A stretch of 58,150 nt of DNA from Oscillatoriales cyanobacterium PMM_0080 (GTDB lineage Bacteria; Cyanobacteriota; Cyanobacteriia; Cyanobacteriales; Microcoleaceae). The notes below the pieces were generated by a model. That model was not told where the DNA came from. It saw nothing but the letters and a program-made list of their open reading frames with translations, and did no database searches. The DNA is taken from the NCBI GenBank assembly GCA_949127775.1, contig CASBQF010000164.1:1-58150 (forward strand), written 5' to 3'. Below are positions 25,675-34,270 of the stretch, one piece after another. The first letter of the stretch is position 1; the number at the start of each line of letters is the position of its first letter. The translations under genes and the position numbers were made by a program.

Positions 25675-25899
25675 ATGCCAAGGAAAATTCGACAGTTGAA
25701 AGTTCAGATTGCGCGTAAAGGGTTTGTTTATCTACCGAAGCGTGGCAAAGGTAGCCATGAACGTTGGCGACATCCTTTGCTCAAAAAAACACTGACAATT
25801 TCTGGAAAAGATGGAGATGATGTGCCACTCTACCTAGAAAAGCAGTTAGCAGAGTTATTAGCTGAACTAAATGAGTTAAGGGAGGATGAGGATTTATGA
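25675..25899 (+). CDS. hicA: HicA family mRNA interferase toxin
   Basis: A 74-residue double-stranded-RNA-binding-fold toxin. The family pattern is KIRQLKVQIARKGFVYLPKRGKGSHERWRHP with the catalytic His in GSHERW (about residue 27). The ATG at 25675 has TAAGGAGAG about 20 bp upstream. It overlaps hicB by 4 bp (25896-25899), the typical toxin-first HicAB arrangement. It is expected to cleave mRNA when HicB is depleted. Confidence 0.85.
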   Translation: MPRKIRQLKVQIARKGFVYLPKRGKGSHERWRHPLLKKTLTISGKDGDDVPLYLEKQLAELLAELNELREDEDL

Positions 25900-26114
25900 A
25901 TCGATACAGCATGGTCGTTCAATGGTCTGATGAAGATCAGCTTTTCTTAGTGACGATTCCAGAGTTTGCAGATCGCGTTGTCATGCCTTGCACTCACGGA
26001 AAAACTCGCGAGGAAGCTATTCATAGTGGCGAAGAAGTGATTGAAATGTATTTGGAAGCTTGGCAAGCTGAAGGTGAATCTATCCCGGAACCTCGCACGC
26101 TTCAAATTGCTTGA
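25896..26114 (+). CDS. hicB: HicB family antitoxin
   Basis: A 72-residue protein with the partial RNase H-like fold of HicB (YSMVVQWSDEDQLFLVTIPEF, then THGKTREEAIHSGEEVIEMYLEAW). No C-terminal DNA-binding domain is present, so it is the short HicB form. It would neutralise the HicA encoded just upstream. The ATG lies within the last codons of hicA. Confidence 0.88.
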   Translation: MNRYSMVVQWSDEDQLFLVTIPEFADRVVMPCTHGKTREEAIHSGEEVIEMYLEAWQAEGESIPEPRTLQIA

Positions 26115-30446: not shown

Positions 30447-30815
30447 TCAACTATATTTTCCAGACGACTCAGCCGCCGCCGCGAGTCTATCCATCACCGC
30501 TCTACCAACCACGGCTAACTCACTAATCGGCATACATTGAATTTTCTTAAGCAGATCATTGGTATCCAAAGGTTCCTGCACCGGCCTACCTTCCAGATGA
30601 GCCATCAACTCTTCCATCGTAAAGCCTGCTCTTGTGGCAATCTGAGTCAAATTTTTCGTATCCGGGAGTACCTGCCCTTTTTCCCAATAGAGGACAGAAG
30701 CAGCAGAAACTCCCAACAATCTGCCAAAGGCGCTCAAACTCATCGAGCCACGCGCTAACTTAACAACCTCGCTCAGTTTTTTCTTAGCTTCTGCGTCCAC
30801 AGTATCAGCCACCAC
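30447..30815 (-). CDS. XRE-family transcriptional regulator, copy 1
   Basis: A 122-residue protein. The HTH covers about 10-70 (KLSEVVKLARGSMSLSAFGRLLGVSAASVLYWEKGQVLPDTKNLTQIA by pattern), followed by a C-terminal helical region ending MDRLAAAAESSGKYS. It is a tandem paralogue of the gene at 30865-31212 with the same architecture (a shared MEELMAHLEGRPVQEPLD / LEEFLRLLEGKPVSDPLD block). The start lies 16 bp from a TCAGTTTA half-site (30831-30838). Autoregulation is likely, by inference. Confidence 0.85.
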   Translation of the reverse strand: MVADTVDAEAKKKLSEVVKLARGSMSLSAFGRLLGVSAASVLYWEKGQVLPDTKNLTQIATRAGFTMEELMAHLEGRPVQEPLDTNDLLKKIQCMPISELAVVGRAVMDRLAAAAESSGKYS

Positions 30816-30830
30816 TTAATCACACATAAC

Positions 30831-30838
30831 TCAGTTTA
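30831..30838. promoter_or_regulatory. TCAGTTTA operator half-site upstream of XRE copy 1
   Basis: The 8-mer is identical to one arm of the 17-bp palindrome upstream of XRE copy 2 (31244-31260) and lies at an equivalent position near the start codon. The second arm is not conserved. Confidence 0.4.
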
Positions 30839-30864
30839 GTGCCCAATTGATTTCGATTCCAGCC

Positions 30865-31212
30865 TTAATCTCCAGAAACCTCAGCCGCCGCCGCCAGCCG
30901 CTCCACACCAGCTCGAACAATCGCCGCCACCTGAGTCAAAGGCAAGAACTTGATTTTAGTAACAATCTGTTGGATATCTAACGGGTCTGAGACAGGTTTA
31001 CCCTCCAACAATCTCAGAAATTCTTCCAGCGTATAACCTGATCTCGCGGCGAGCTTAGCCAAGTTGTCCGTATCGGGAACCGTATCGCCTCTTTCCCAAA
31101 GCTGAACAGCAGTAGAGGAAACTCCCAAAAGCTTACCAAAAGCTCGCTGGCTCATTGTCCCGCGCGCTTTTTTGATAATTTCACTAAGTTTTTCTTTATT
31201 TTGGATGTTCAC
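30865..31212 (-). CDS. XRE-family transcriptional regulator, copy 2
   Basis: A 115-residue HTH protein (KLSEIIKKARGTMSQRAFGKLLGVSSTAVQLWERGDTVPDTDNL by pattern, about 6-50) with a C-terminal helical domain ending VERLAAAAEVSGD. It is transcribed towards copy 1, 49 bp upstream of its start, so the two may form one operon. A perfect palindrome (31244-31260) lies 32 bp before its start and a promoter for the divergent gene follows, so it probably represses itself and perhaps its neighbour. Confidence 0.85.
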   Translation of the reverse strand: MNIQNKEKLSEIIKKARGTMSQRAFGKLLGVSSTAVQLWERGDTVPDTDNLAKLAARSGYTLEEFLRLLEGKPVSDPLDIQQIVTKIKFLPLTQVAAIVRAGVERLAAAAEVSGD

Positions 31213-31324: not shown

Positions 31325-31386
31325 AAAAAGTATAGATATAGTTTTACTGCATCGGAGTGCCCCTCACGATCCAGGAGTGCCCAAAA

Positions 31387-31824
31387 ATGACCAAGAGACG
31401 CAGCCAAAACACTCACAACTCACGTCGCAACCGTCAAAGCCTCACCGCCTCCGGTTGGCTCAAACCCCAGTGCTGGCAAATTTCCAAAACGGAAGCAGCC
31501 GTTGCGCTGAAAATCCCCGTCAACCGCATAGTCAAAGTTTACCCCAAACAACATCAAGTAATAGTCGTTTATCTGAACAAGAAAGGACAAAAATGCAGTT
31601 CCTTTTTCAGCTACCGATTATTTGCTAGATGGGAAAAAGAGACGATCGCCACAATTGCCAGTTGTCGAAACCAGCAAACTCTCGCACCCCTCGAAATCAT
31701 AGTACAGTACGACCTCGAACATTTCAAGTATCCCGTCCAGAGCGCCGATGCAATTTGGGACACCCTACTCAACCACATCCGTCAAGTCATCAGAGACCAA
31801 AGGCTCAGCCTAGCTTGCGCCTAG
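31387..31824 (+). CDS. Hypothetical basic protein with a decayed partial copy downstream
   Basis: A 145-residue protein from the ATG at 31387, which has AGGAG nine bases upstream; a GTG 30 bp earlier also keeps the frame. The N-terminus is very basic (TKRRSQNTHNSRRNRQS), followed by KTEAAVALKIPVNRIVKVYPKQHQVIVVYLN, which looks like a small beta-rich domain, then FFSYRLFARWEKE and a C-terminal helix (AIWDTLLNHIRQVIRDQR). No known family was recognised. The nucleic-acid-like basic N-terminus and position opposite the XRE regulator suggest a regulated partner. A pseudogene copy of its second half is at 34097-34255. Confidence 0.65.
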   Translation: MTKRRSQNTHNSRRNRQSLTASGWLKPQCWQISKTEAAVALKIPVNRIVKVYPKQHQVIVVYLNKKGQKCSSFFSYRLFARWEKETIATIASCRNQQTLAPLEIIVQYDLEHFKYPVQSADAIWDTLLNHIRQVIRDQRLSLACA

Positions 31825-31862: not shown

Positions 31863-32345
31863 CTAGGGCAAATCGATTCCTGAGATGGATATTCCTTGCA
31901 TCTTCTGTACATATCGTCCTTGAGCCGCTACACACTCTGCCATTCTTTGAGCCTGTATAGGTTGACTCCTGGGATCTGGTGAGGTGCCTCTATACTCCCA
32001 TACACCACCACGACCACTATTTATTACTTTCCCATTTTTTTCTAAGATTAACTCTTCTCCGGTAGCATCAATATAGAATTTCCCCTTTTGAAAAGACACG
32101 CTGCTAATTGTGATATCTTCCACTCCCTTGTAAGGATTTGCAGGGCCCTTGACAATCTTGATACAGATTCTATTGTTTTTATGTGCAATTTCTCGGCGGG
32201 AATTATTGAACATGGTTCCTTGAGAGTAGTAATTTCCTGTGGGTAGAATTGTAGAATCTTGTTGATTACCTTGAGCAGATGACAAGTATGAAATTGATAG
32301 AAGAATAGAACTAGCAATTAGTGTTTCGAGTACCCTAAATTTCAT
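31863..32345 (-). CDS. Secreted protein of unknown function (paralogue of 21844-22266)
   Basis: A 160-residue protein with a signal peptide (about 1-25, ending LSSAQG). The mature part has GNYYSQGTMFNNSRREIAHKNNRICIKIV and KGKFYIDATGEELILEKNGKV. The IAxKxNRICxK...KFY words match the secreted protein at 21844-22266. It lies 45 bp downstream of the HicA-fusion gene on the same strand, so it is probably its operon partner and would share the periplasm with that protein's sensor-like domain. The function is unknown. Confidence 0.7.
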   Translation of the reverse strand: MKFRVLETLIASSILLSISYLSSAQGNQQDSTILPTGNYYSQGTMFNNSRREIAHKNNRICIKIVKGPANPYKGVEDITISSVSFQKGKFYIDATGEELILEKNGKVINSGRGGVWEYRGTSPDPRSQPIQAQRMAECVAAQGRYVQKMQGISISGIDLP

Positions 32346-32390: not shown

Positions 32391-34064
32391 TCACAGATTA
32401 TCGAAAAAATCCTCTCTGGTTATCTCTGCTTGCCGAACAATAGTCCTTAGTGTCCCATCCTTTAATGCTCGACCCCCATGTATTGGTACGGGGAGAGAAA
32501 TTGTTCGTCTTATCATTTTTTTCAGGATAACATGGCTGCCGTTTTGCCTATCTTCGGTGAATCCCAAACGCTCTAAACACCGCACCGCATCTCTGCCTGA
32601 AACATTTCTCAAAGGCCTAGCTCCAGCAGAAAAGGAACTATCTATAACTATTTCTTGAGTATCTGATATCAAAGAATTGTTATCATACATTATATTTTGC
32701 AAATAACGGATATACTCTTTAGCTGAATTTAGTTCTCGGTCTAAGTCAGCATTGTCCTCTTCTAGCTTTTCATTTTCTTCTAAATCTGAATTTAGTTGTC
32801 GGTATAAGTCAGCATTTTCCTTTTCTAGCCTTTGAGTTTCTTCTAAAGCATAAACTTCCCAATCCCTTGATCCTGCTTTGAACCGCTCTAATTCGGTCCT
32901 AGATCCTTCTAGAGCAGCATTGAGTTCATTAATATTAGGTATTGTTTCTAACTGTTGCTCTAACTGACGAGATTCCTGTTGTATTAAATCTCGATCGCGC
33001 TTCAAATCAGTTATTTTCTGATTGAGCGCTTGACTCCGCTGCTTTGCTTGAGATTCTCGCTGAGACGTTTCTTGCAACTTTTGCCGTAGTAATTGCAAGT
33101 CTTCTAAAGTTTGAGCAGTTTCTTGCTGTTGCTGTTCTTTAAGATCCAGTTCGCTTTCATAAGATGCAATTTGATTTTCCAGTTCTCTCTTATTTTGCTC
33201 CTGTCCTTGCCGATAAGATTCCAGTTCAGCAAGACCTCTCTCTCGCTCGTCAATTAATTTGATAGTTTGCTGGTTTTTCTTTTCTAATTGCAGCTTAATC
33301 TGTTGAATTTCCCGCTGTAATTGTTCCCGTTCTTGCTGTGCAAGGTTCTGCTCATTCCGTTTGGCAGATAAAACCAGCTCAATAATTATCCACGCGCTCA
33401 AACCACCAAGGAGAAATAAAGCGACTGTCAATGTGTAAAGAGTCGCGGAACCTCTTACTTTAAATGGCTCTTTAATCCAATTATTATAATCTTCAATAAA
33501 TGTCGGCGGTACTCCCCGGACATAGTACACACGACCGATTATTTCTCCTGAGTTAACTCTACCAGTAGGGATGGGTTTACTATCACGAGGTTTTGAATAT
33601 TGCCACTCTGCTTGCAGCGGAGGTGGACTTTCTAGTAAGTTGTACGGATGATTTGATAAAGTTGCTAATGAAATTTCCTTTGTCCACTTCTGAGAAAATT
33701 TTGATTGATAAAGAATTTGCTCGGATGGGCAATCTTTGGCAGCCATTCTGCAATCAGTAACAATCAGCCCAAAGAATCCATAGTTACTGTCTAAAGTTTG
33801 CTGTAATTCTTCTATATTTCCTTGCAATAAGGTATAGGATAGTTTTCCTGGCAGAGTATGAGATAACATATTGAAATCAACTGTTTGCACAGCAAAGATT
33901 GTGCCATTCCAATAGTTGTTATAATTTTGCCAGTTTTTCAAAGTCCCCAGACCCAAAGAAAACGTCGCGATCGCGGTAAGTCGCCCCAAACTCCTAATCA
34001 GCGTAGTCGGGTTGATCCGGGGAAGTTTTTGCTTCATAATGTGCTTCATAAGGTCAACAGCCAA
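32391..34064 (-). CDS. Membrane coiled-coil protein with C-terminal HicA (YcfA) toxin domain
   Basis: A 557-residue protein; alternative ATGs lie 5 and 9 codons in. TM1 (about 28-42), a periplasmic segment (about 45-205) with a Cys pair (DCRMAAKDC, 105-112), TM2 (about 208-232), then a Gln/Glu/Leu-rich cytoplasmic coiled coil (about 235-465) and a complete HicA-type domain (487-557): SGRDAVRCLERLGFTEDRQNGSHVILKK by pattern, with the catalytic-type His at 511 in NGSHVIL and the strand ISLPVPIHGGRALKDGTLRTIVRQA. HicA toxins are normally free proteins of 60-80 residues paired with HicB; no hicB is adjacent. The layout is that of a transmembrane sensor carrying an RNase-like effector, which is inference. 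Its downstream partner is a secreted protein. Confidence 0.82.
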   Translation of the reverse strand: MAVDLMKHIMKQKLPRINPTTLIRSLGRLTAIATFSLGLGTLKNWQNYNNYWNGTIFAVQTVDFNMLSHTLPGKLSYTLLQGNIEELQQTLDSNYGFFGLIVTDCRMAAKDCPSEQILYQSKFSQKWTKEISLATLSNHPYNLLESPPPLQAEWQYSKPRDSKPIPTGRVNSGEIIGRVYYVRGVPPTFIEDYNNWIKEPFKVRGSATLYTLTVALFLLGGLSAWIIIELVLSAKRNEQNLAQQEREQLQREIQQIKLQLEKKNQQTIKLIDERERGLAELESYRQGQEQNKRELENQIASYESELDLKEQQQQETAQTLEDLQLLRQKLQETSQRESQAKQRSQALNQKITDLKRDRDLIQQESRQLEQQLETIPNINELNAALEGSRTELERFKAGSRDWEVYALEETQRLEKENADLYRQLNSDLEENEKLEEDNADLDRELNSAKEYIRYLQNIMYDNNSLISDTQEIVIDSSFSAGARPLRNVSGRDAVRCLERLGFTEDRQNGSHVILKKMIRRTISLPVPIHGGRALKDGTLRTIVRQAEITREDFFDNL

Positions 34065-34096: not shown

Positions 34097-34255
34097 TTCA
34101 GCTACATATTATTATTTGCGCGTTGGCAACATTTCAACTATCCGATCGCGTAGGCGTAGTAAACCATAGGCATCGCCAACCAAATTTGGGATATCCTACT
34201 CAACCACATCTACCACCTCACCAAAGAACAAAGGCACACCCAAAAATGCGCCTAG
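34097..34255 (+). pseudogene. Decayed 3' copy of the gene at 31387-31824
   Basis: In one frame the segment reads FSYILLFARW, QHFNYPIA, then three stops within 21 bp, then GIANQIWDILLNHIYHLTKEQRHTQKCA and a stop. The intact gene has FSYRLFARW, EHFKYPV, SADAIWDTLLNHIRQVIRDQRLSLACA. An internal deletion (between FARW and the EHF equivalent) and in-frame stops show it is dead. It lies beyond the HicA-fusion operon, so that operon is flanked by the intact gene and this remnant. Confidence 0.8.
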
Positions 34256-34270
34256 CACCCAATCAAACCA

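Follow-up and report, generated by a model that had tools for sequence, protein, structure and literature searches.

The usual picture of a toxin from a toxin-antitoxin system is that of a free enzyme kept in check by a labile antitoxin. In the DNA analysed here, a stretch of 58,150 nucleotides from Oscillatoriales cyanobacterium PMM_0080 (contig CASBQF010000164.1; hereafter the window), a HicA toxin domain instead forms the C-terminal end of a predicted membrane receptor (positions 32391 to 34064; hereafter the fusion). Together with its relatives it points to the same toxin enzymes serving as outputs of membrane receptors without a recognised antitoxin, a modularity like that of the CARF proteins but with a predicted extracytoplasmic input. 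We read the fusion, with a probability of roughly 0.6, as a one-component transmembrane receptor-effector in which a periplasmic signal controls a cytoplasmic HicA RNase without a dedicated antitoxin.

In common with HicAB the fusion has a full HicA domain with the catalytic histidine position and its flanking glycine; unlike HicAB, its HicA is the C-terminal part of a 557-residue membrane receptor, and no neighbouring HicB gene was found. CARF domains are soluble sensors. In the parts of the papers available, which is the extent to which all papers are cited here, one CARF sensor is joined to effectors of the HEPN, RelE or restriction-endonuclease-fold type (PMC4012209), and it is this use of one sensor with interchangeable nuclease or toxin effectors that recalls the fusion and its relatives (PMC4012209, PMC9676260). 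CARF, however, binds cyclic oligoadenylate, whereas the fusion has a sensor that by prediction lies outside the membrane, with a long coil joining it to its effector. The membrane-anchored antiphage nuclease ShdA of Shield (PMC10270631), for which a coiled coil has been noted (PMC11090510), likewise has an N-terminal membrane anchor, a long coil and a C-terminal nuclease, but is an RmuC-type DNase, and an extracytoplasmic sensor of the fusion's kind is not mentioned in the available parts of these papers; RmuC is not among the 14 Pfam families matched at E 0.001 by the 69 members of the sensor family. Kinases and chemoreceptors with Cache/PDC sensors (LuxQ, WalK, CitA, KinD) share the order of membrane helix, sensor and membrane helix and a similar predicted fold arrangement, and some family members are themselves kinases, two of them beside a response regulator; here, in contrast, an RNase-toxin or nuclease domain serves as the output.

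Polymorphic toxins also have a conserved N-terminus and an exchangeable C-terminal toxin, and the variable C-terminal cassette of the fusion, replaced inside the gene, resembles theirs (PMC3482391). That the fusion is a toxin of this type, delivered to other cells, is nevertheless highly improbable: the N-terminal part is a membrane sensor in which Pfam finds no trafficking domain, the kinase members imply a cytoplasmic C-terminus, and the protein is predicted to remain in the producing cell. No secretion or trafficking domain occurs among the Pfam families matched by the fusion or the 69 members, and no adjacent gene for immunity of the HicB-like type, the only type searched for, was found in 68 loci. 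In the open-licence literature, a scope outside which most subscription papers fall, no paper on a fusion of HicA to a membrane sensor was found; the available parts of a HicAB review do not mention 'fused', 'orphan' or 'solitary' (PMC11594946), and HicA and NERD are unmentioned in those of two surveys of conflict systems (PMC7159879, PMC8195603). A sensor with an exchangeable nuclease is a known kind of protein; what appears to be new, in the literature that could be searched, is that an extracytoplasmic sensor is combined with toxin-antitoxin RNases.

The fusion protein and its parts

The gene and its parts, all on the minus strand, are as follows.
32391..34064, minus: fusion gene, 557 residues from TTG, 552 from the first ATG (34049)
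33930..34001, minus: first membrane helix, weak in the window copy and stronger in most relatives (borders approximate)
33456..33914, minus: predicted Cache/PDC-like extracytoplasmic sensor domain with a cysteine pair at 105/112 in TTG numbering (borders approximate)
33366..33443, minus: second membrane helix (borders approximate)
32640..33344, minus: predicted cytoplasmic coiled coil of about 235 residues, with a jump in divergence near codon 320-360 against two relatives
32421..32597, minus: HicA toxin domain (PF07927), a Pfam profile match
32532..32534, minus: codon of His511, the H of GSH at the HicA catalytic histidine position

A preliminary description of this DNA had seen in the fusion a full HicA domain with its histidine, a coiled coil of about 230 residues, two membrane helices and a cysteine pair in the segment between them, and all of these were recovered. 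The HicA_toxin profile matches residues 490-548 over positions 1-58 of its 58 (58.4 bits, cut-off 27, E 7.5e-16) and is the single Pfam family found in the protein at E 1. The sole solved sequence matching at E 1 is 1WHZ (E 3.4e-5), a HicA-family protein (PMC3969222). His511 (506 in ATG numbering) is the H of a GSH motif at the position corresponding to the catalytic histidine, a role described for His24 of HicA (PMC3969222). GSH or GDH is present in 24 of 24 fused relatives. By profile and histidine position the domain belongs to the HicA family, and its RNase activity and toxicity are predicted.

The coiled coil extends from 236 to 470 (ATG numbering), with a heptad score of 2.25 compared to a mean of 0.22 and a maximum of 1.36 in 500 shuffles. 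The second membrane helix is clear (Kyte-Doolittle 19-mer 2.37); the first is weak in the window copy (1.12), but 56 of 65 family members have an N-terminal maximum above 1.3. As the first 23 residues contain six lysines or arginines and no aspartate or glutamate, the N-terminus is probably inside. Both cysteines are present in 39 of 63 sensor rows and neither in the other 24, one alone never being found. The sensor region matches no Pfam family at E 1. Its AlphaFold2 (AF2) model has a predicted local distance difference test (pLDDT) score of 91.3, and 28 of the 50 structure matches listed are sensors of kinases or chemoreceptors, several repeating one protein. The domain is predicted to be Cache/PDC-like and to lie between the two membrane helices; its arrangement in the predicted structure is Cache-like rather than Rossmann-like, no CARF-specific test having been made.

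One sensor with exchangeable outputs

The sensor family, which is patchily distributed in cyanobacteria, was analysed as 69 proteins (74 sensor frames, from which five short fragments and a frame containing masked bases were removed, plus the window protein). Pfam outputs were assigned at E 0.001. HicA is found in 25 of the 69, following a whole or partial sensor (two are partial, and many come from closely related species), so that the sensor-HicA fusion is not an artefact of one genome and the same domain order does recur elsewhere. The other outputs are NERD (13 members), HATPase_c of histidine kinases (6), DUF2325 (4), Gp49/HigB (2), Card1_endonuc (2), ParE (1) and CHAT with nSTAND1 (1). 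Those matches to DUF2325 (L138, L150, L165, L166), Card1 and ParE that were inspected individually lie below the Pfam cut-off. Among labels given by eye, L176 (which looked DUF2325-like) and L181 were not confirmed and L134 has a weak DUF2325 match; the remaining members either are truncated or lack a recognised output (L148, L152, L151). One more output without a Pfam name has a fold closest to HicA, and the nuclease ends of three members match CARF4 PD-DExK models in PADLOC.

A quick sensor tree, in which many branches are weak, requires at least 15 changes of output (59 sensors, 10 output states, some labels by eye); with eight doubtful labels removed, 13 changes remain among 52 rows and 8 states, the minimum possible being 7. 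Sister pairs on this tree join the DUF2325 form L165 to the NERD form L167 (SH-aLRT 98) and the ParE form L050 to the kinase form L173 (95). In both kinase members tested (L139 and L173, out of six) the next gene has a response-regulator domain (E 4.5e-19 and 2e-9). This position before a response regulator is the strongest indication obtained on function and orientation, and suggests that the sensor is a genuine signal input and that the region after the second membrane helix is cytoplasmic. The kinase-type siblings, with two of them beside a response regulator, may also offer a reporter route to the ligand.

In the mechanism that we propose, the Cache-like domain would sense a ligand or an envelope change outside the inner membrane, and the second membrane helix and the long coiled coil would pass the change into the cytoplasm. 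The HicA RNase domain would then go from a held-off to an active state, with HicA domains released or paired, and would cleave the mRNA of its own cell, leading to growth arrest or death. The C-terminal effector would be an exchangeable cassette, its place on the same sensor being taken by HigB/Gp49, ParE-RelE, NERD, Card1-like, DUF2325 or histidine kinase domains. The ligand, the switching and its direction of control, the RNase activity, the self-targeting and the benefit to the cell are proposed steps. Of the one-protein sensor with an RNase-like effector envisaged in the preliminary description, an extracytoplasmic sensor joined to an RNase-like output is retained, given the kinase and nuclease or toxin siblings and the kept histidine; the part given to a secreted protein is not (see below), and phage entry, one of the inputs suggested there, is a speculative signal. 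That such a sensor is joined to RNA-cutting toxin or nuclease-like ends suggests that an outside signal could directly switch on a self-targeting enzyme. If this is true, cyanobacteria would have a means of turning an external signal directly into RNA cleavage and growth arrest. The odds lie slightly in favour of the wider view that such transmembrane receptor-nucleases constitute a new cyanobacterial class, with externally controlled toxins and an extracytoplasmic sensor that draws on a palette of HicA, divergent HicA-fold, HigB, ParE, NERD, Card1-like and caspase-STAND modules and kinases.

Some individual members differ in build. Two (L148:8044-9543 and L152:8372-9742) consist of sensor and coil with no recognisable output domain. 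L202, L203 and L204, read by eye, have a hydrophobic N-terminus, a coil and a divergent HicA-fold domain and lack the sensor, so that the divergent HicA-fold effector exists on a simpler scaffold too. L146:4680-7769 (G089) is a frame of 1030 residues with the sensor at its C-terminus and the nSTAND1 match in the same gene, and the single CHAT match most likely belongs to this frame. In L137:7768-9606, the same gene as L026 and L057, the HigB/Gp49 output is followed by a further in-frame stretch, which we take to resemble the start of a HigA antitoxin. The ParE-type member L050, on a plasmid of Synechococcus elongatus IITB3, has Swt1-HEPN and N-6 DNA methylase genes as neighbours and, farther away, HEPN, GIY-YIG and DEAD/DEAH helicase genes, a context that is anecdotal.

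HicB, selection and loss of the fusion

The window itself contains an ordinary HicAB pair as a contrast to the fusion.
25675..26114, plus: free HicA (25675-25899) and HicB (25896-26114)

The genome of the window holds 12 HicA matches, 11 of them above the cut-off; apart from the fusion, all of them (11) lie in short frames. Seven of the short HicA adjoin a PF15919 HicB match, of which the genome holds 13 (the match of the window pair is below the cut-off in that genome search and above it when searched as a protein). Upstream of each of the other four is a small open reading frame (ORF), with sub-cut-off PF15919 matches in two, a UPF0150 match in one (6e-31) and a weak UPF0150 match in the last. 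UPF0150 is, as we take it, a HicB-like family; all 11 short HicA matches have a HicB-like neighbour. Beside the fusion there is no PF15919 match in its own genome. A HicB profile hidden Markov model (HMM), built from seven ORFs beside the short HicA of this genome and able to recover the HicB of the window (match at 25890-26114), found nothing at E 1e-3 in the 68 sensor loci fetched, with flanks of up to 9 kb and some shorter, which agrees with the lack of an adjacent HicB noted at the outset. Since the HicA-only matches listed among 98 relatives are all in frames of at most 157 residues, long HicA frames are not common noise. The best-scoring free relatives of the fused HicA, among the matches listed, are 45-55% identical to it. 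The HicA tree needs five changes between fused and free forms, only one being forced by starred branches, and does not settle the number of HicA captures.

This abundance of free pairs gives room for two other explanations. The fused HicA may be a non-toxic module that binds RNA or HicB, the coil tethering RNA or titrating HicB at the membrane. HicA has a dsRBD-like fold (PMC3969222), and titration would find its object in a genome with 11 free HicA matches and HicB-like neighbours; the retention of GSH or GDH in all 24 fused relatives speaks against such a module, as do the swaps with unrelated nuclease or toxin domains, which have predicted catalysis rather than HicB binding in common, and we consider it rather unlikely. 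Alternatively, the toxin may be held off in trans by the HicB of a free HicAB pair, with membrane sensing secondary and the membrane part an anchor only. Such crosstalk would be served by the resemblance to free HicA and by the number of PF15919 matches noted above; it fits poorly, however, with NERD, Card1 and kinase forms that share the same sensor and with sensor loci whose fetched flanks have no HicB-like gene, and is a quite unlikely explanation.

The receptor-effector reading also draws support from the ratio of nonsynonymous to synonymous change (dN/dS) in other families. In family f7 (9 genomes, 36 pairs, of which 34 were usable for HicA and 31 for the coil) the medians are 0.09 (HicA), 0.15 (coil) and 0.34 (sensor); two groups of f9 (3 and 4 genomes) have 0.09 and 0.06 in HicA and 0.20 and 0.21 in the sensor. 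The fused HicA is, as judged from these ratios, under purifying selection in two families other than that of the window (medians 0.06-0.09 compared to 0.20-0.34 for the sensor). In a single f11 pair, where only about 2% of synonymous sites differ, HicA reaches 2.35 and the sensor 1.25.

Downstream of the Microcoleus fusion, to which the window copy belongs, lies a gene of secreted type, as had been described, its signal peptide being judged by eye.
31863..32345, minus: signal-peptide-like ORF, starting 45 bp downstream of the fusion

Synonymous difference to the relative G004 is 0.05-0.07 for the fusion and this secreted ORF and 0.25-0.40 for seven other genes tested, and this low divergence suggests that the two form a block recently exchanged. 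Nucleotide identity to G004 over 30-38 kb is 89-98% in the block and 73-97% in the flanks and gives no sharp borders, so that the exchange is read from synonymous sites only. Inside the fusion gene, synonymous difference to G012 and L043 is 0-0.13 in segments that begin at codons 0-280, rises to 0.15-0.21 in the one at 320 and is 0.35-0.75 in those from 360 onward. Because of this jump from codon 320-360, the end of the coil together with HicA is judged to have been replaced inside the gene, within Microcoleaceae.

Several observations weigh against the receptor-effector reading. Between the window fusion and that of G004, 17.8 changes are synonymous and 110.2 nonsynonymous (dN/dS 1.78, P 0.026), and dN/dS is 0.83 against G012 and 0.67 against L043 (P 0.006 below 1), both values including the replaced tail; across these three comparisons the ratio is 0.35-0.56 in the secreted gene and 0.01-0.23 in the other flanking genes. 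Positive selection on the Microcoleus fusion is not claimed, as the ratio exceeds 1 in one pair only. Among the Microcoleus copies, that of G020 has an internal stop and that of G026 has lost HicA. In G013 a 36-residue match to the HicA end (L199:1198-1305, 50%, E 5e-7) persists just upstream of the secreted gene, for which reason the fusion was probably once present there and has since been lost. The window copy may accordingly be diversifying, relaxed or on its way out. The secreted ORF has no Pfam match and is restricted to this genus (9 of 59 genomes), including three genomes (G011, G013, G019) where no sensor match was found; at the six fusion loci checked outside Microcoleus (L125-L129, L131) no copy was seen. 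Its proposed role as a general signal or inhibitor, together with the expectation of the same gene downstream of other fusions, is therefore rejected, and it is best regarded as a local passenger whose partnership with the fusion is not established. Nor was an association with defence islands seen: the closest neighbouring ORFs, at most four per locus, of 25 loci (99 proteins) were compared by PADLOC with those of 25 offset control loci of the same genomes (97 proteins), a small test, and no enrichment was found in the families listed. At E 1e-10 there were 68 PADLOC families at the loci and 61 at the controls, none with more than two members, and those among the 25 listed were nearly identical generic ones. 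Finally, RNase activity was not seen in vitro for the CARF-RelE of Synechocystis (PMC9676260), which calls for caution in reading the fused HicA as an RNase.

The ratios of 0.67-1.78, the stop in G020, the HicA loss in G026 and the remnant in G013 would all fit a Microcoleus fusion that is a decaying relic of a once-useful system. This is unlikely, though it deserves to be taken seriously, as the frame is open over 552 codons, GSH is kept in the window, G004 and G012, the low synonymous divergence from G004 suggests recent exchange of the block, and purifying selection is seen in the two other families.

Surroundings of the locus

The Microcoleus fusion lies between prfA and the secreted ORF wherever the contig reaches, with the exception of the truncated G026 copy, beyond which the secreted ORF was not seen in 1.0 kb of contig. 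The window sensor was unmatched in phage records and had no confirmed relative among IMG/VR contigs. An ORF at 31357-31824 lies past the other end of the block of fusion and secreted gene, and the block is flanked on its prfA side by a decayed copy of this ORF in direct orientation.
34183..34269, plus: decayed partial copy of ORF 31357-31824 (87 bp, 76%)

Copies of this fragment also occur on the prfA side in three relatives checked, where they are longer. At 30447-31212 the window carries tandem helix-turn-helix genes, and the number of matches at the same place varies among relatives.
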